This document shows, one piece after another, positions 5,699 through 64,000 of a stretch of DNA of 64,000 nt. The stretch is taken from the NCBI RefSeq assembly GCF_003386165.1, contig NZ_QRDV01000002.1, forward strand, positions 62,001-126,000. Direction: 5' to 3'. The first letter of the stretch is position 1, and every line of letters starts with the position of its first letter. The notes under the pieces are model-generated. The model saw only the letters and a program-made list of their open reading frames with translations. It was not told the DNA's origin and ran no database searches. The DNA comes from Winogradskyella eximia. GTDB taxonomy: Bacteria; Bacteroidota; Bacteroidia; Flavobacteriales; Flavobacteriaceae. Position numbers and translations under genes: made by a program.

Positions 5699-5744
5699 AA
5701 GCACCTGTTCTATAGTGCACAAATGTGTTGTGGAATAGGTGCTT
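5699..5744 (+). other. Hairpin downstream of the HPF/eRF1-like pair
   Basis: AAGCACCTGTTC pairs with the segment ending GGAATAGGTGCTT. The stem is about a dozen pairs with a ~20-nt loop. No clean T run follows on either strand, so it may be a processing or weak termination structure. Confidence 0.45.
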
Positions 5745-5872
5745 TAAAAGCCTTAAATATTACAGCTATAGCAAAAAAAACAGTGTTGTTAATGGCTTAT
5801 TAAAGAGAGTTGACCTTAGTCAGTACAAAGGTCTTAACACTGTATTACTTTTAAAACTAAATAAGAGAAATT

Positions 5873-6322
5873 ATGATCAATAACTTAAATACTACAGAAA
5901 AAGCCATAATACTTCATACTAATTATATTGGTGATTTAGGCTATTTAAATCATAATGAACCATCAATTGCACCAATTACCTATTTCTATAATGAAGACGA
6001 AAATAATATTACGTGTCATTTAAGTAATATGCATAAAATAAAAGCTTTACGAGAAAACCATAACGTGTCTTTATGTGTCTCTGCGATTAACTCCATTAAT
6101 GACTGGAAATCGGTTTTAGTGCATGGCACTTTTAAAGAACACACAGGCAGTGGAGCTAAATCAATACTCCACAATATGTATTTAGGCGTTCAGAAACTTA
6201 TGAGAAATAAGAATGAAAGCAGATTAGACTTTATCAACCAGTTTTCTAGTAAGGTGAATGATAACGATATTCCCATCATATTTACAATTGAAATTGATGC
6301 TATTACAGGTACACAAAATTGA
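5873..6322 (+). CDS. Pyridoxamine 5'-phosphate oxidase family flavin-binding protein
   Basis: 149 residues with the split-barrel pattern of the PNPOx/FMN-binding family: GDLGYLNHNEPSIAPITYFY, LSNMHKIKALRENHNVSLCV and DWKSVLVHGTFKE are the three segments typical of the 'general stress' and 5-nitroimidazole-reductase-like branch. These proteins bind FMN or F420-like cofactors and often act in redox stress. The substrate is unknown. The gene is 216 bp downstream of the eRF1-like gene with a hairpin between, so it is probably a separate transcript within the same stress neighbourhood. Confidence 0.8.
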   Translation: MINNLNTTEKAIILHTNYIGDLGYLNHNEPSIAPITYFYNEDENNITCHLSNMHKIKALRENHNVSLCVSAINSINDWKSVLVHGTFKEHTGSGAKSILHNMYLGVQKLMRNKNESRLDFINQFSSKVNDNDIPIIFTIEIDAITGTQN

Positions 6323-6516
6323 TAGTTATAGTCTGTAGAACTCAATAATTGCGTTTATTTTAGCTCCATACTGTCATTAGAAAATTTGCACTTATGGGAT
6401 ATGCTGTAGCCAATACAACCAAAACGGATTACCTATGTAAGCGCATAACTTAAGATGTGCTCTTTATTATCTTTTTACTAATTGTAGGAATTTACCATAG
6501 CTCACCCGAAGCATAC

Positions 6517-6558
6517 CCGAAGGAGAGCCGAAGGAGAGCCGAAGGAGAGCTGAAGGAT
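6517..6558. repeat. 11-bp tandem repeat
   Basis: Unit CCGAAGGAGAG occurs three times perfectly (6517-6527, 6528-6538, 6539-6549) with a fourth decayed unit to 6558. It lies in the 282 bp gap between the PNPOx-like gene and the nucleotidase and is not in a plausible coding frame. Confidence 0.85.
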
Positions 6559-6604
6559 CTCTGGTTGAGACCCGAATAAGCACTTTTATATCTATTATCC
6601 GTTT

Positions 6605-7126
6605 TTACAACAAGCGCTCTGCTATGTCTAACCAGTTAGATACTCTTGTGTAGCCTGTGTCATTTACGTTATGAGGCGAATTGTAAAGCAAAGTATCTCC
6701 TTCAAATTTTTCTAAGTTGTAGGTTCTGTCGTCTATTAATAAATCTCCGTTTAAAATAAACTTATCTCCGCACATTATACGATGTTGCCAAGTTACAAAG
6801 GGCATGTGCTCGTCTAACCATTCGCTTTTTTCTAATAAGGAATTAGGAAACTGTGTGGCTGCCGTTGCAATGTACACTTCATGTTTGTTGTACAAGGCTT
6901 CCATAACTTGTATGGCATCTTTAAACGGTTTTAGGTTTCTGAAAAACCCTGGCTGTAAGGCGTGATCTTTTATGCTTTTCTGGTGAATCTTTGGAACGTT
7001 ATTCCATATTTCACCTGAGGTGATTTGGTTGATACTTAAGTCTTGTTGATGCTCTTTATTATATAATTCTATGTGCTTACCGTAAGTGTCGGCTAACACA
7101 TCGTCCATGTCTACAAATATTGTCAT
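6605..7126 (-). CDS. 5'(3')-deoxyribonucleotidase-like HAD phosphatase
   Basis: 173 residues. The N-terminal IFVDMDDVLADTYG carries the HAD nucleophile motif DxDxxLA, YIATAATQFPNS gives the second-motif Thr/Ser position, and GDLLIDDRTYNLEKF supplies the acidic fourth motif. Length and the 'GFFRNLKPFKDAIQVMEAL' segment match the NT5C family, which removes phosphate from deoxyribonucleoside monophosphates and so helps balance dNTP pools. It is transcribed alone, divergent from the next gene. Substrate preference cannot be fixed from sequence. Confidence 0.85.
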   Translation of the reverse strand: MTIFVDMDDVLADTYGKHIELYNKEHQQDLSINQITSGEIWNNVPKIHQKSIKDHALQPGFFRNLKPFKDAIQVMEALYNKHEVYIATAATQFPNSLLEKSEWLDEHMPFVTWQHRIMCGDKFILNGDLLIDDRTYNLEKFEGDTLLYNSPHNVNDTGYTRVSNWLDIAERLL

Positions 7127-20291: not shown

Positions 20292-21029
20292 TTAAATATT
20301 AATCAAGTAATTTTTATGATACATTTTTTTATAAATGTCTTTACTAAACATATATAATTGTGCTGGTTTTTTAGACACACCAACTTGTTTCTCGTCTAAA
20401 GGAATGATGTACTTTTTATTAATCAGTTTTCTTCTGAAATTACGGTTATCAATCTCTATTCCTAAAATGGATTCATAGAGATCTTGTACGTCATTAATCG
20501 TGAATTTATCTGGAAGTAACTCAAATATAATAGGCTCTACTAAGCATTTTGTTTTTAAATCTTCGTGAGCTTCTTCAATAATCTGTTGGTGATCGAATCC
20601 TAATTCTGGTAATTCTCTAACTGGAAACCATTTGGCTTCATACTTATTATTATCAACATCAACATCTTCTGTTTTTAACAAGAAGTAATACGCTATAGTA
20701 ATCGTTCTAAGGTTAAACTCTTGATTTTGAACCCAAATAAGATCTTTTTTATTTGATAAACGATCTGGATTTCCAAAGGCCTTAAATTGTTTTTTATACT
20801 GATTGGTTAATCCTGTTAATTCTTTTAATACGCGTGTTGCTGATTCATCTAACGTTTCATCTTCATAAACGTGGTATCCCGTAAGTACATAATCATTAAC
20901 TAAGACGTCTTTGGTGGTTTCAGATTCTAAATACCGTTTTATAAGAAGCACATTTAAAGATTTGGTATTGGTGTCGTATCCAAAAACCACACAATCCACA
21001 GATAAATTAAGAATTTTATTAGGCTCCAT
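20292..21029 (-). CDS. Nudix-family transcriptional regulator (NrtR/AraR-like) of the mannitol cluster
   Basis: 245 residues. The N-terminal Nudix domain begins SVDCVVFGYDTNTKSLNVLL and the C-terminal winged helix contains NDVQDLYESILGIEIDNRNF and RRKLINKKYIIPL, the layout of NrtR and of the Bacteroides arabinose regulator AraR. The Nudix box is degenerate: GYHVYEDETLDESATRVLKE keeps Gly and Glu but has RVLKEL where REUXEE is needed, so pyrophosphatase activity is unlikely. It is divergent from a permease-mannitol dehydrogenase-fructokinase operon, so it probably senses a sugar alcohol or sugar phosphate and controls that operon. Confidence 0.87.
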   Translation of the reverse strand: MEPNKILNLSVDCVVFGYDTNTKSLNVLLIKRYLESETTKDVLVNDYVLTGYHVYEDETLDESATRVLKELTGLTNQYKKQFKAFGNPDRLSNKKDLIWVQNQEFNLRTITIAYYFLLKTEDVDVDNNKYEAKWFPVRELPELGFDHQQIIEEAHEDLKTKCLVEPIIFELLPDKFTINDVQDLYESILGIEIDNRNFRRKLINKKYIIPLDEKQVGVSKKPAQLYMFSKDIYKKMYHKNYLINI

Positions 21030-59910: not shown

Positions 59911-61143
59911 ATGAAAATAGGTATTGCACAAACAGCAGCTTTAAAAGGTGAAGTGGATAAGAATATTAAAAATCACTTGTTACTAATTAAACGTGCTATA
60001 AACTTAGGTGCCGACGTAATCATTTTTCCAGAACTATCAATTACAGGTTACGAACCCGAGTTAGCTAAAGCGCTTACAACCCATATAGACGATAGCATAT
60101 TCAATAGGTTTCAAGAACTATCAGATCAAAATAAAAGTATCATAGGCGTAGGCATGCCAACCAAGTCTATTAAAGGAATTCACATTAGCATGCTAATCTT
60201 TCAACCTTATAAAAAGCGCATGGTGTATGCTAAACAAATCCTTCATGCAGATGAAAAACCCTATTTCGTTTGTGGAAATAATCAAACCTATATACACATT
60301 AAAGGCAACAAAATTGCCATCGGAATTTGCTACGAAGCCTTACAACCCAAACACGTTTTAAAAGCCATTGATGATAATGCAAACCTATACATAGCAAGTG
60401 TCGCTAAGTCCAAAGAGGGCATTGAAAAGGCCAATGCATACTTCCCCAGAATGGCAAAGGAATATAAGATACCCATCCTAATGTCTAATGCTGTAGGATA
60501 TTGTGATAATTTCATGAGTGCTGGTCAGAGTGCGGTTTGGAATAAAAATGGCAAGCTAATGGCACAACTCGATCATAAGAATCAAGGCCTTTTAATCTAT
60601 GACACCGAATTGGAAGCTGTGGAAATGCAGCAATCAAAAATAGAAAAAGGACAATCGTCTAAGCTAAACACCATTTTCCAAATGTATCTAAATGCGAAAC
60701 ACCACTTAGAACAGAATGGCATATATCAGTGGACAACAAATTATCCAACACTATCAATACTTCAAGAGGATCTAAATAAAGGCGTGCTTTACACATTACA
60801 ACTTCAAAATGAAATAATAGGAGCCATTAATATAAGTGAAGAACAAGAAGATGAATATCAGTCTATTGATTGGCAATATAACGACTCAAAAGTTGTAGTG
60901 ATTCACAGACTTGTAATCGATCCCAAACATCAGCAACAAGGTTATGCTAAGCAGTTAATGGAATTTGCAGAAGATGTTGCAATTCAAAACAAGTATACTG
61001 CAATACGTTTAGATGTGTATAGCCAGAACATAAATGCAATTAATTTTTATAAAAAGCGTGAGTATTTTAGTCGAGGAGAGGTCAATTTCCCTGGGAGAGC
61101 ATACCCTTTTCATTGTATGGAAAAGGAAATTAAACCAAGCTAA
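59911..61143 (+). CDS. Nitrilase-superfamily amidohydrolase fused to a GNAT acetyltransferase
   Basis: 410 residues with two domains. Residues 1-~255 are a carbon-nitrogen hydrolase with the complete catalytic set: Glu41 in FPELSITGY, Lys108 in YAKQILHADE and Cys140 in IGICYEALQ. Residues ~265-405 are a GNAT domain with VIDPKHQQQGYAKQLM (acetyl-CoA loop at 341-346) and RLDVYSQNINAINFYKK. Separate members hydrolyse amides or ureido groups and acetylate amines; in one chain they could remove one acyl or carbamoyl group and add another. The reaction is unknown. It is 29 bp after two GNAT genes on the same strand. Hairpin repeats follow. Confidence 0.9.
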   Translation: MKIGIAQTAALKGEVDKNIKNHLLLIKRAINLGADVIIFPELSITGYEPELAKALTTHIDDSIFNRFQELSDQNKSIIGVGMPTKSIKGIHISMLIFQPYKKRMVYAKQILHADEKPYFVCGNNQTYIHIKGNKIAIGICYEALQPKHVLKAIDDNANLYIASVAKSKEGIEKANAYFPRMAKEYKIPILMSNAVGYCDNFMSAGQSAVWNKNGKLMAQLDHKNQGLLIYDTELEAVEMQQSKIEKGQSSKLNTIFQMYLNAKHHLEQNGIYQWTTNYPTLSILQEDLNKGVLYTLQLQNEIIGAINISEEQEDEYQSIDWQYNDSKVVVIHRLVIDPKHQQQGYAKQLMEFAEDVAIQNKYTAIRLDVYSQNINAINFYKKREYFSRGEVNFPGRAYPFHCMEKEIKPS

Positions 61144-61213
61144 TGTCTAATGCAATAAGTGACTTCACAAGCGACATCAAATCCCAAATCAAGATAACAA
61201 CAAATCCCCTTAA

Positions 61214-61273
61214 CGTCAGTTCGAGTGTTTCTTAATGCGAAGTGCAACGAAGAATTAAGAAATGTATCGAGAA
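61214..61273 (+). repeat. Short hairpin repeat (CAGTTCGAGTG family), tandem copy 1
   Basis: CGTCAGTTCGAGTG at the left, TATCGAGAAT at the right, and a long internal stem TTCTTAATGCG...GAATTAAGAA in place of the CCCGAC stem. Confidence 0.85.
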
Positions 61274-61279
61274 TCTTTG

Positions 61280-61326
61280 CGTCAGTTCGAGTGTCCCGAC
61301 CTTTTCGTCGGGATGTATCGAGAACC
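61280..61326 (+). repeat. Short hairpin repeat (CAGTTCGAGTG family), tandem copy 2
   Basis: CGTCAGTTCGAGTG, then the stem CCCGAC...GTCGGG, then TATCGAGAACC. It is 6 bp from copy 1 and best preserves the family consensus. Confidence 0.9.
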
Positions 61327-61372
61327 TTATAATAATCCAAATCTATAGTTAGTACAAACAAGTTTAAATTTA

Positions 61373-61388
61373 TACTTTTGTGTACAAA
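61373..61388 (+). promoter_or_regulatory. Promoter box and palindrome before the NrtR-type gene
   Basis: TACTTTTG (61373-61380) fits TAnnTTTG and lies 17 bp before the ATG. It overlaps TTTGTGTACAAA (61377-61388), a near-perfect palindrome, and GTACAAAC occurs both at 61352 and 61382. Autoregulation through these is possible. Confidence 0.45.
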
Positions 61389-61397
61389 CTACACATA

Positions 61398-62075
61398 ATG
61401 AGTAATCAATCCATAAAACTTTCTGTAGATGCTGTTGTATTCGGATACGAAGAAGGCAACATATCTGTATTATTAATCAAAAGAAAATACGAACCATTTA
61501 AAGGTGAATGGGCTATTCCTGGTGGTTTTGTACTCAATGAAGAATCCTTAGAGGAAGCTGTAGAAAGAGAACTACACGAAGAAACAGGGATTAAGATTAA
61601 TTATCTAGAACAACTATACACCTTCGGAAAGCCAAGTAGAGACCCAAGAGGTAGAGTAGTGTCCGTAGCTTATTTTGGATTGGTACGACCAAATGCCTAT
61701 AAAATTGTGGCTTCGACTGATGCAGAACAAGTACAGTGGTTTAATATTAATGAATTACCCAAGTTATCATTCGACCATAAAGAAATCTTAAAAGCAGCAA
61801 TAGAGCGCTTGCAAGGTAAAATAACATATGAGCCTATTGGCTTTGAACTACTAGATAAAAAATTCCCGTTTTCAGACTTAGAAAAACTGTATACGACTTT
61901 ACTAGGTCGCGATATCGACAGACGGAACTTCCGTAAAAAAATGGTGGGCTTAAATGTGTTAGATGAACTAGATGAAAAAGTATCTAAAGGTTCAGGTCGA
62001 CCAGCAAATTTATTCCAATTCAATCCTAAACGCTATTTCCAACTAAAAGAAGAAGGTATTATTTTTGAAATATAA
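61398..62075 (+). CDS. NrtR-type Nudix regulator with intact Nudix box
   Basis: 225 residues. The N-terminal Nudix domain begins IKLSVDAVVFGYEEGNISVL and has a complete box: GGFVLNEESLEEAVERELHE followed by ETGI, with the REL-x-EE-x-G metal site intact. The C-terminal winged helix has FPFSDLEKLYTTLLGRDIDR and NFRKKMVGLNVL. NrtR family members bind ADP-ribose or related NAD breakdown products and repress NAD-metabolism genes. The intact box leaves open a real pyrophosphatase activity. The start at 61398 is preferred to 61380. The next gene has two palindromes at its promoter. Confidence 0.9.
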   Translation: MSNQSIKLSVDAVVFGYEEGNISVLLIKRKYEPFKGEWAIPGGFVLNEESLEEAVERELHEETGIKINYLEQLYTFGKPSRDPRGRVVSVAYFGLVRPNAYKIVASTDAEQVQWFNINELPKLSFDHKEILKAAIERLQGKITYEPIGFELLDKKFPFSDLEKLYTTLLGRDIDRRNFRKKMVGLNVLDELDEKVSKGSGRPANLFQFNPKRYFQLKEEGIIFEI

Positions 62076-62101
62076 AACCCTTTAAATCAACATTATAAAC
62101 A

Positions 62102-62178
62102 GTTTGCGTAAAAATAACGCATAATAAAGTTGCTGGACAATTTATTTCCTTTTACATTTGTGTTATAATTACGCAAAT
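62102..62178. promoter_or_regulatory. Paired palindromic operators and promoter of the SPFH gene
   Basis: GTTTGCGTAAAAATAACGCA (62102 onward, to 62123) and TTTGTGTTATAATTACGCAA (62157 onward, to 62178) are inverted-oriented copies of one 22-bp palindrome with outer halves TTTGCGT/ACGCAAA. The second overlaps the -7 box TACATTTG (62153-62160), which has a TTG 20 bp upstream. A Nudix regulator bound here would block the promoter. Confidence 0.75.
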
Positions 62179-62198
62179 AACCTTAAATACTCAATATT

Positions 62199-63209
62199 AT
62201 GTTAGGAATAAATTATATCAAATTCGACTCAATGAATTACGTTATTCATTATCAAAACGGAAAAATTAAGAAAGAGGGAAGAGGATTATCATTCTTTTAT
62301 TTCTCTCCAAATGCATCAATAGTGTCTATTCCGGTGCAGAGTAATGATTTTCAATTTGTATTTAATGAAACCACTAAAGATTACCAAGAGGTTACGATAC
62401 AAGGTCAAGTCACTTACAAAATTGTGCAGCCAAAGCAACTCGCAGAAACCTTAGATTTTACGGTAAATAGTAAAAAACAGTATCTAAAGAGCGACTATGA
62501 AAAAATTCAACAACGTATTATTAATGAAGCACAAACAGCAAGTGCCTCTATTATTCAGAAACTAAGTCTTAAAGAAGCATTACGACAATTAGAAGGCATA
62601 GAAAACGAAATATTCACTAGCGTACAAGATTCTAAAGCTGTTAAAATGCTTGGATTAGAAATTCTTAGTGTCAACGTACTTGGCGTCTCTCCAAATCCAG
62701 AAATGGCAAGAGCCTTAGAAGCACAAACAAGAGAGTCTTTACAAAAGGAAGCGGATCAGGCGGTTTATGAACGTAGAAATTTTGCTGTAGAACAAGAGCG
62801 CATTATAAAAGAAAGTGAACTAAATACTGAAATCGCAGTAGAGGAGAAGCAAAAGCAAATTGTAGAGAAGAAAATGGAAACAGATGTCGTAAAGCAAGAA
62901 AACGAGCAGAAACTTAAAGAAATGAATATGACCTCTAGTATTTCTCTAGAAGAGCAAAAGAAAACCCTCATCGATATCCAAGTAACCAACGAAAAGAAAG
63001 AAGCAGATGTTAAAGAGTATGTATTAAATGCCAACTTAAAACCATACAAAGAGCTAGACTGGAAAACCCTAATGGCAATCAGTAATAACGGTAATGATCC
63101 AAGTAATAATATAGCGTTAGCCTTTAGAGAATTGGCGGAAAATGCCGATAAAATTGGAAACCTTAATATCTCTCCAGACTTATTAGAGTCTCTTACCAAA
63201 AGTAAATAA
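62199..63209 (+). CDS. SPFH/band-7 domain protein
   Basis: 336 residues. An N-terminal SPFH/prohibitin-like domain (residues ~5-180; GRGLSFFYFSPNASIVSIPV, YQEVTIQGQVTYKI and LGLEILSVNVLGVSPNPEMA) is followed by a long charged coiled coil (~185-280, ALEAQTRESLQKEADQAVYE then Glu/Lys-rich heptads) and a short C-terminal region. There is no clear N-terminal span, so membrane attachment would be peripheral or by partner. SPFH proteins build oligomeric scaffolds. The next gene, NAD-kinase-like, starts one base after the stop, so the two are coupled. Confidence 0.88.
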   Translation: MLGINYIKFDSMNYVIHYQNGKIKKEGRGLSFFYFSPNASIVSIPVQSNDFQFVFNETTKDYQEVTIQGQVTYKIVQPKQLAETLDFTVNSKKQYLKSDYEKIQQRIINEAQTASASIIQKLSLKEALRQLEGIENEIFTSVQDSKAVKMLGLEILSVNVLGVSPNPEMARALEAQTRESLQKEADQAVYERRNFAVEQERIIKESELNTEIAVEEKQKQIVEKKMETDVVKQENEQKLKEMNMTSSISLEEQKKTLIDIQVTNEKKEADVKEYVLNANLKPYKELDWKTLMAISNNGNDPSNNIALAFRELAENADKIGNLNISPDLLESLTKSK

Positions 63210-63210
63210 T

Positions 63211-64000
63211 ATGAAATTCGAAAACGTCATAATAATTAGAGATAAAACAAGGCTTGAGCAGTTAATCGAAAGATTCAACTCTAAAGCTCAAGCCAAATTT
63301 TATATTGAAAGTTCTGGAGGAGACTTTACCTTTTTTGAACGCGAACATCATACGTTTTATGAATCCCTTTCAAAAATTAAAACAACCATCATAGATAGTC
63401 TCAAATACAAAGTAATCAATAGGTCTTTTTTGCCCACTTATATATTTACAGCAAAAGATATCGTACTCGTCATTGGGCAAGATGGCTTAGTCGCTAATAC
63501 AGCAAAATACGTTAACGGATTACCAATAATAGGTATAAATCCAGATTATAAGCGCTATGATGGCATTCTATTAAAACATGCACCCAACGATTTAAAAGAC
63601 ATACTCAAAAAGTTGCTCAAAGGTACGTACAGCACCAAACAAGTCACAATGGCCAAAGCCACTTTAAACGATGGACAAGAATTATTGGCTTTTAATGATT
63701 TTTACATCGGTGCAGATTCACACGTATCGTCTAGATATAGCATAGAATATAAGGGCATAAAAGAACAACAATCCTCAAGTGGTATTATAGTATCAACAGG
63801 AGCAGGTTCTACAGGTTGGTTAAGTTCTATTTTTAATATGACCAATAATATTTCTGGGTATTTTCATAATGAAAGCCATTATAGCACCAAATTAGAGTGG
63901 AATGCAAACCAACTTGTTTTTGTAGTGAGAGAACCTTTTTTAAGTAAACAATCACAAACTAATATCGGTTACGGCATTATAACAAAAACCACCACATTGA
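63211..64000 (+). CDS. NAD-kinase-like protein, truncated by the window end
   Basis: 263 codons are open from the ATG at 63211 to the edge without a stop. The N-terminal region (~80 residues, DKTRLEQLIERFNSKAQAKF) is unusual. Then comes the NAD kinase core: LVIGQDGLVANTAKYVNGLP (Gln where the NADK GGDG motif has Gly), NDFYIGADSHVSSRYSIEY in the place of the NE/D substrate segment, and STGAGSTGWLSSIF for the conserved GSTA-type loop. It may phosphorylate NAD or a related diphosphate; the changed GGDG makes activity uncertain. It follows the SPFH gene by one base. Confidence 0.85.
   Translation, partial: MKFENVIIIRDKTRLEQLIERFNSKAQAKFYIESSGGDFTFFEREHHTFYESLSKIKTTIIDSLKYKVINRSFLPTYIFTAKDIVLVIGQDGLVANTAKYVNGLPIIGINPDYKRYDGILLKHAPNDLKDILKKLLKGTYSTKQVTMAKATLNDGQELLAFNDFYIGADSHVSSRYSIEYKGIKEQQSSSGIIVSTGAGSTGWLSSIFNMTNNISGYFHNESHYSTKLEWNANQLVFVVREPFLSKQSQTNIGYGIITKTTTL

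Follow-up and report, generated by a model that had tools for sequence, protein, structure and literature searches.

A conserved NrtR–SPFH–kinase module of Bacteroidota with a predicted operator switch shared with NAD-rebuilding genes

Introduction

Regulators of the NrtR family, such as SoNrtR and MsNrtR, join a Nudix domain to an NrtR winged helix, and in the characterised NrtRs of nicotinamide adenine dinucleotide (NAD) metabolism, in AraR and in MsNrtR the Nudix box is impaired, according to PMC4666351 and PMC6800001. Nudix or WYL repressors that sense ADP-ribose have been predicted to control systems centred on ADP-ribosylglycohydrolase (ARG), with a Nudix-type repressor proposed for ADP-ribosylglycohydrolase, macro and NADAR genes (PMC9503650), so that repressor control of ADP-ribose clean-up genes is not new. 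Section 3.8 of that paper describes these systems without SPFH, NAD kinase, Prs, NAMPT, an operator sequence or Bacteroidota, and the terms "SPFH", "band-7" and "NAD kinase" occur nowhere in its text. A further related system is NARP1, composed of Adps and Namat; PMC12774641 describes bacterial NARP1 as functional and leaves open the physiological role of chromosomal NARP1. Here we analyse three genes at the end of the window, a stretch of 64,000 nucleotides from Winogradskyella eximia (contig NZ_QRDV01000002.1, positions 62,001 to 126,000), which encode an NrtR-type protein, an SPFH/Band 7 protein and a kinase-like protein of the NADK2 type. On sequence evidence they form a real and conserved module, predicted to be regulated as one unit in Bacteroidota through a switch that is shared with genes responding to NAD breakdown.

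The regulator of this module resembles the NrtR family in its domains and in the palindromic operator predicted, from sequence, at its own and its target promoter. Its relatives have predicted NAD-metabolism targets, represented in its own genome by the kinase-like gene only. It differs from the characterised members in that its Nudix box is intact, impairment of the box being a habit of those members and not strictly defining, and in that its predicted targets in the window are the SPFH gene and the kinase-like gene. In the open-licence literature we found no link of NrtR-type Nudix regulators with SPFH proteins, of SPFH proteins with a bacterial NAD kinase, or of NARP1 with NrtR.

Results

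The genes and putative control elements of the module are given below in window coordinates; all lie on the forward strand.

61377-61397, forward: operator 1, TTTGTGTACAAACTACACATA, abutting the nrtR ATG; predicted to serve autoregulation
61398-62075, forward: nrtR-like gene for an NrtR-type repressor, 225 residues; NUDIX domain with intact Nudix box, and NrtR winged helix
62103-62123, forward: operator 2, TTTGCGTAAAAATAACGCATA, 5' of the -33 region of the SPFH promoter
62130-62132, forward: probable -33 TTG of the SPFH promoter; TTG/TTTGG at the same column in most of 12 aligned relatives
62153-62160, forward: -7 box, TACATTTG, overlapping operator 3
62157-62177, forward: operator 3, TTTGTGTTATAATTACGCAAA, over the -7 box; its start is 54 base pairs (bp) from that of operator 2
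62199-63209, forward: SPFH/Band 7 gene, 336 residues; Pfam Band_7 at 1.4e-20
63211-64000, forward: NADK2-type kinase-like gene, cut by the window end

The gene coordinates confirm the order nrtR-like, SPFH, kinase-like on one strand, with the kinase-like gene starting one base past the SPFH stop (63211 against 63209); the full kinase-like protein has 306 residues and extends to about 64131 in extended coordinates (L002:5212-6132). An earlier analysis of the bare letters, here called the sequence-only reading, had reported two palindromes, the second overlapping the -7 box. Both were recovered as 21-mers (62103-62123 and 62157-62177), at most one base from where they had been placed, and the overlap with TACATTTG at 62153-62160 stands; operator 1 (61377-61397) is a third copy that had been overlooked. 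The -33 element at 62130-62132 is assigned tentatively from the Bacteroidota promoter consensus. When 12 chosen loci were aligned, the conserved blocks were the two operators and the -7 box, and the window's operator pair was matched by 0 of 300 first-order shuffles (first-order resamplings, 300 per test, served as the shuffle control for the operator throughout).

Conservation of the gene arrangement was assessed over 58 loci, with six duplicates left out (L096-L100 and L106, which equal L012, L005, L014, L031, L023 and L042, respectively). The SPFH gene adjoins the kinase-like gene in 52 of them; among the six exceptions, contig ends cut four (L023, L027, L035 and L040), and two have no SPFH match (L038 and L042, the latter with a broken kinase gene). 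An nrtR gene adjoins the pair in 30 of the 58 loci and heads the same gene run in two more (L091 and L094), giving 32/58. It lies upstream, except at L026, where it is downstream, and at L034, L036 and L087-L090, where it is divergent. The sequence-only reading had staked its module on the three genes keeping together in relatives, and these counts do not refute it. When 148 Bacteroidota genomes were searched with kinase (A1) and SPFH (A2) profiles at an E-value of 1e-25, both genes were found, adjacent, in the same six genomes and neither was found in the other 142.

The pair is sparsely but widely distributed, occurring in Bacteroidota, Planctomycetota, Pseudomonadota, Spirochaetota and Actinomycetota. 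Within the window's family (Flavobacteriaceae) the kinase is present in 12 of 397 genomes, and two other genomes of the same genus in the sample lack it. Among 72,556 plasmid records 69 have a kinase match, which covers at least 80% of the kinase in 57; a phage origin of the module was rejected, none of 50,697 phage records matching the kinase at an E-value of 1e-5. A NUDIX gene stands beside the SPFH–kinase pair in the Providencia, Methylomonas and Acinetobacter records and in two Rhizobium records; the Acinetobacter SPFH gene is unannotated, a shorter frame there being matched by the SPFH profile, and the Proteus record has no gene annotation at the kinase locus. Among the records displayed, annotations of the kinase read "hypothetical protein" or "sugar kinase", with "ATP-NAD kinase PpnK-type protein" in a few rows. 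Kinase-like genes also lie near tet(H) in Acinetobacter and tet(J) in Proteus (L089, L176), and shortened kinase matches (plasmid matches H37-H40) occur on Pasteurella, Psychrobacter, Proteus vulgaris and Aeromonas plasmids.

The relation between operator and regulator was examined by scoring the consensus TTTGYGTANNNNNTACRCAAA in the 160 bases 5' of SPFH at the 50 loci that have an SPFH match and at least 100 upstream bases. Because the consensus was written after the upstream regions had been viewed, the counts for L002-L045 are descriptive; L091, L093, L094 and L127-L131, together with the paired-operator genome search described below, are independent of its writing, and related loci do not count as independent events. 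A site with at most two mismatches lies 5' of SPFH in 28/50 loci, and an operator pair, with starts 51-54 bp apart and at most four mismatches in the poorer site, in 25/50. Where Bacteroidota loci combine an adjacent NrtR with a separate SPFH promoter, all 24 carry an SPFH site with at most two mismatches, so the palindrome does recur upstream of other SPFH genes, and its absence there, named beforehand as a refutation, did not occur. The same 24 have such a site before nrtR in 21 cases, L017 (one mismatch) included; in the other three, L026 has a site with three mismatches, and L018 and L031 have none. L091 and L094 have SPFH within a run headed by nrtR; there the site stands before nrtR (2/2) and not before SPFH (0/2).

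For the 17 loci without an adjacent NrtR, whole genomes were searched for a subfamily member elsewhere. Five contain one in trans (306-363 bits), and four of these five (L006, L022, L043 and L093) have the SPFH site. In the other 12 genomes no NrtR scored above 215 bits and an SPFH site with at most three mismatches was present in 0/12, a contrast tempered by the incompleteness of some genomes, where the missing regulator may mean a missing contig. (L045, the remaining locus of the 50, falls outside this comparison.) Computation thus links the presence of the predicted operator to this NrtR subfamily. Gene linkage, which extends to Planctomycetota and Proteobacteria, and the operator counts (24/24 against 0/12) support a single regulated module, and the NrtR-type protein very probably controls the SPFH–kinase pair.

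Carrying the Bacteroidota operator over to other phyla is weak: of the six Planctomycetota (L034, L036) and Proteobacterial (L087-L090) loci whose regulator is adjacent, none has a site within two mismatches before SPFH. Four-mismatch sites are present in L034, L036 and L090 and are reached by 0, 1% and 0.7% of 300 shuffles; because so few shuffles reach them, a diverged operator is possible in these lineages. Among seven such loci, palindromes with 8-bp arms are perfect in L034 and L090, have one mismatch in L089 and L179, and are missing from L036, L087 and L088, with perfect ones arising in 1 to 21 of 200 shuffles.

A wider view of the switch was obtained by searching the 397 family genomes, with no mismatch allowed, for the paired-operator pattern taken from the SPFH promoters. 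It was found in 18 genomes, and the reversed control gave 0. Six matches lie before SPFH (G000, which is the own genome, G297, G334, G399, G487 and G529; the kinase of G334 is on a different contig), and the other 12 lie at NAD-rebuilding operons. These twelve loci and G334 were annotated by comparison with Pfam-named or self-named relatives. NrtR lies within the fetched stretch in 11/12 (not L170), as do a NAMPT-family gene of the Namat type (not L174) and a Prs-family gene (not L170), and NADAR, macro, ADP-ribosylglycohydrolase or KptA genes are present in 7/12 (L163, L164, L165, L167, L168, L170 and L174).

The Namat assignment comes from scores and from conserved residues. The L164 protein gives 620 bits to the solved phage Namat 9w5x/9w5w, which are Namat structures according to the data statement of PMC12774641, against about 233 to human Nampt, and the other ten Namat-type proteins give 594-969 bits to the L164 protein against 238-283 to the Nampt-type L094 protein. 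All 11 keep the aromatic clamp residues (F392/Y396 in Namat), with F/Y in seven and F/F in four. The transferases of the NadM-like–NadV runs (L091, L094 and L131) have A/K at the clamp positions, and that of L094 scores 531-545 bits to Nampt against 273-283 to the Namat-type chains. The scores and clamp pair therefore suggest that the operator pair marks chromosomal NARP1-type genes besides SPFH–kinase. The Prs-family genes are called Adps-like solely for their partnership, and the protein of L164 passes the general ribose-phosphate diphosphokinase cut-off. The module resembles NARP1 in its paired operator, which relatives carry at Namat-type genes in 11/12 loci and at Prs-family (Adps-like) genes in 11/12, and is unlike it in that the window contains no NARP1 genes, with SPFH–kinase in their place behind the same promoter. 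Mutual exclusion of the two gene sets under the operator was considered and set aside, since their zero overlap in 397 genomes allows no inference when about 0.4 is expected by chance. In the paired-operator locus L170, an adenylosuccinate-synthetase family gene (5744-6817, reverse strand) adjoins the Namat-type gene.

Other loci connect SPFH–kinase itself with the same metabolism. The L091 run comprises NrtR, NadM-like/Nudix, NAMPT (NadV), Prs, a small protein, SPFH and kinase; that of L094 comprises NrtR, NadM-like/Nudix, NAMPT (NadV), one small gene, SPFH and kinase; and at L131 the in-trans NrtR heads a NadM-like–NadV run behind a perfect operator (the NadM label reflects gene position and NCBIfam matches far below their cut-offs). 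At least one of the DUF4291, ADP-ribosylglycohydrolase, macrodomain, NADAR and KptA clusters, named through Pfam on L011 plus the NADAR of L093, is present in the fetched flanks of 12/58 loci. The genomes of L006 and L043 have, besides the operator-bearing SPFH pair, a separate NrtR locus (L127 and L128, respectively) with two operators, heading an ADP-ribose gene cluster; Pfam identifies ADP_ribosyl_GH, NADAR, DUF4291, Macro, a SLOG protein and PTS_2-RNA/KptA in L128 and confirms one ADP_ribosyl_GH in L127. No such cluster was found by the in-trans NrtR within the fetched stretches of L129 and L130. Two small families also recur in the ADP-ribose gene clusters (L012:7437-7856 and L008:6926-7393, members without a Pfam match), and in L128 a protein related to the second matches Macro below the threshold.

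The occurrence of the paired operator at NAD-rebuilding and ADP-ribose clean-up genes suggests that the module belongs to a NAD-breakdown regulon. The earlier proposal that NAD breakdown derepresses the module is better supported by the paired operator at Namat-type genes, with ADP-ribose as the predicted signal.

The kinase-like protein has an NAD-kinase fold. For the model of the 93% identical L003 protein (predicted local distance difference test, pLDDT, 88.8), the nearest fold is human NADK2 (7r4l; Z 28.4, root-mean-square deviation (rmsd) 2.3 over 289 residues), the best other NAD kinase fold being that of the P. aeruginosa NAD kinase (Z 22.4), and NADK2 is also the strongest sequence match of the family profile (1.4e-14). 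PMC8553519 reports that the human mitochondrial enzyme uses ATP or polyphosphate as donor, and describes GGDG as highly conserved in NAD kinases, with an NE/D motif named too. Human mitochondrial NADK2 (7r4l, 7n29) is the closest solved fold and strongest sequence match, and the window's protein differs from it by G[QRP]DGL in place of GGDGT, by N-D, still an NE/D-type pair, in place of N-E, and by its SPFH partner gene. The GQDG that the sequence-only reading had remarked on is present, but it is no peculiarity of the window copy: G[QRP]DGL occurs in all 42 motif-covering rows of the 44 aligned, with an invariant motif Asp, and a mutation of the window copy was rejected on this ground.

The change of the second glycine of GGDG to Q, R or P throughout those 42 rows is also a reason to consider that the protein is a non-kinase nucleotide-binding partner which, on an SPFH assembly, would sense or sequester NAD(P), ADP-ribose or a cyclic ADP-ribose signal. 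The own genome contains another NAD kinase (C6:17020, 72.5 bits), and hence an additional NADP source is not obviously needed. Such a role is possible but improbable, as alignments of 25 and 27 members show no variation in the motif Asp, in N162-D163 or in several positions of the STGAGSTGW loop. A related proposal, that the pair is an undescribed two-gene system in which a soluble SPFH assembly carries a kinase acting on ADP-ribose or cyclic ADP-ribose instead of NAD and serves as an alternative to Adps/Namat behind an ADP-ribose-sensing, self-resetting NrtR switch, is in our judgement unlikely.

A role for the module as an anti-phage defence or anti-defence unit is likewise doubtful. Its patchiness in the family (12/397, and in neither of the sample's two other genomes from the same genus) and its presence in 69 plasmid records would suit such a unit, as would a match of the NrtR protein to the PADLOC model PDC-S07 (42 bits, over the Nudix part), the position of the own copy beside PADLOC candidate PDC-M55A/B/C genes, and a switch in common with NARP1-type genes, NARP1 being a known phage counter-defence (PMC12774641). 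Against this, SPFH and kinase match no PADLOC family, the kinase is missing from the phage records searched, and the neighbours vary between loci. Membership of a PADLOC defence family was rejected for SPFH and kinase; 7/8 of the relatives' genes were also unmatched, the eighth being a NADAR gene that matches PDC-M42C. The three PDC-M55A/B/C-like genes themselves lie just past the window end, directly 3' of the module (L002:6420-10213); in Pfam the first matches AAA_15, the second has no match and the third matches GmrSD_N.

The SPFH protein was modelled as a monomer (pLDDT 81.8, predicted template-modelling score 0.50) with a long helix at 167-280. Its structural neighbours are prohibitin (Z 14.6), HflK/C, Erlin, stomatin, flotillin and major vault protein, with which it shares an SPFH domain followed by a long helix; tight matches are limited to the SPFH domain (stomatin Z 13.5, rmsd 2.8 over 112 residues), and matches over the long helix have a large rmsd. 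Unlike those proteins, it has no visible transmembrane anchor and has a kinase-like neighbour in 52/58 loci. The highest 19-residue Kyte-Doolittle mean is 1.33, so no transmembrane helix is expected. The "membrane" in the membrane scaffold of the sequence-only reading was thus not borne out. SPFH proteins are commonly membrane scaffolds, and some lineages have the pair without NrtR, as would be expected if an ordinary housekeeping gene for membrane microdomains came with an accessory supply of NADP and lay near NrtR only incidentally; we regard this as very improbable given the missing transmembrane stretch, the sparse distribution, the recurrence of the NrtR linkage in Bacteroidota, Planctomycetota and Proteobacteria, and operators that track the regulator.

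The nrtR product matches Pfam NUDIX (4e-22, 79.1 bits; cut-off 21.1), NrtR_WHD (1.9e-22, 79.6 bits; cut-off 27) and AraR_C (2.6e-19); its N-terminal NUDIX domain and C-terminal NrtR winged helix place it in the NrtR family. It scores 161.6 bits on the NCBIfam NtrR equivalog NF050029, under the cut-off of 400, and its best solved relatives are BtAraR 5bs6 (5e-55), 2fml and SoNrtR 3gz5. The intact Nudix box was confirmed and sets the protein apart from the characterised NrtRs, a point on which the sequence-only reading is corrected. The box fits the consensus in 40/44 distinct subfamily members (profile score above 280 bits) and is intact in 0/15 lower-scoring proteins (eleven paralogs and four Proteobacterial partners). 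With that contrast, and with subfamily operators at NAD and ADP-ribose genes, an AraR/XylR-like sugar sensor in place of an ADP-ribose sensor is most unlikely, although BtAraR is the best solved relative.

The window encodes a second NrtR/AraR-type regulator, with a broken Nudix box, at 20292-21029 on the reverse strand. Shortly 5' of nrtR, at 59911-61143, a carbon-nitrogen hydrolase domain is fused to a GNAT acetyltransferase domain, and between that upstream gene and nrtR (about 61210-61335) a stretch like GTCAGTTCGAGTG ... TGTATCGAGAA is present twice, as judged by eye.

Discussion

The sequence-only reading is upheld in part, for the module and its regulation and not for the membrane. The computed features, from gene linkage and the operators with their tie to the NrtR subfamily to the shared promoter architecture and the fold, are probably best explained as a whole by an NrtR switch that is induced by NAD breakdown and controls an SPFH scaffold with an NADK2-type kinase. 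The NrtR-type protein would repress its own promoter via one operator and the SPFH–kinase promoter via a pair spaced by about 54 bp, of which one lies over the -7 box. On NAD breakdown, a rise in ADP-ribose, or a related ADP-ribosyl nucleotide, would lead to binding by the Nudix domain and release of the repressor, so that the SPFH and NADK2-type proteins would be made. Since the Nudix box is intact, the repressor may hydrolyse its own ligand and so reset itself. The SPFH protein is most likely an oligomeric scaffold for its kinase partner, and the kinase-like protein most likely phosphorylates NAD, or a close adenine dinucleotide, which would refill NADP in recovery. The regulator subfamily and its operator also occur, in relatives, at Namat/Adps-like NARP1-type genes, or at NadM-like, NadV and Prs genes, and at ADP-ribose clean-up genes, which would make SPFH–kinase one branch of the response to NAD breakdown.

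Several observations weigh against this account. The Treponema and Streptomyces records have SPFH–kinase without an annotated NUDIX gene within about 4 kilobases, and with the 12 loci above they show that the pair exists where no subfamily NrtR was found; NrtR control is therefore not essential to the pair's activity. L029 has no operator before SPFH in a genome with a 306-bit NrtR, and none of the four partner regulators in Proteobacteria has an intact Nudix box, nor do their loci have an operator site with at most two mismatches. The paired operator is missing from six of the 12 family genomes with the kinase (G195, G251, G416, G438, G472 and G512). Counted over the own genome, single operators with at most three mismatches show no enrichment (88/93 matches; reversed control 139/138), so this count was dropped as evidence, which leaves pairing, position and conservation to carry the case. 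The own genome also has no NAMPT_N match; together with the unenriched single operators, this means that its predicted regulon may consist of the module only. For the kinase, the second glycine of GGDG is replaced, and the 263-residue window part scores 20.4 bits on Pfam PF01513 (NAD_kinase) against a gathering threshold of 25.5; a PF01513 search of the own genome did not list the gene's place.

The finding bears on several parts of NAD biology. Within the window's family, Namat-type genes are now linked to a defined regulator subfamily and a defined operator pair, so that the role of chromosomal NARP1 becomes directly testable. Under the NrtR-switch reading, ADP-ribose would be both substrate and switch. 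A large orphan kinase family would gain a place in NAD-breakdown biology, and the intact Nudix boxes of this NrtR subfamily raise the idea that a repressor might degrade the inducer to which it responds.

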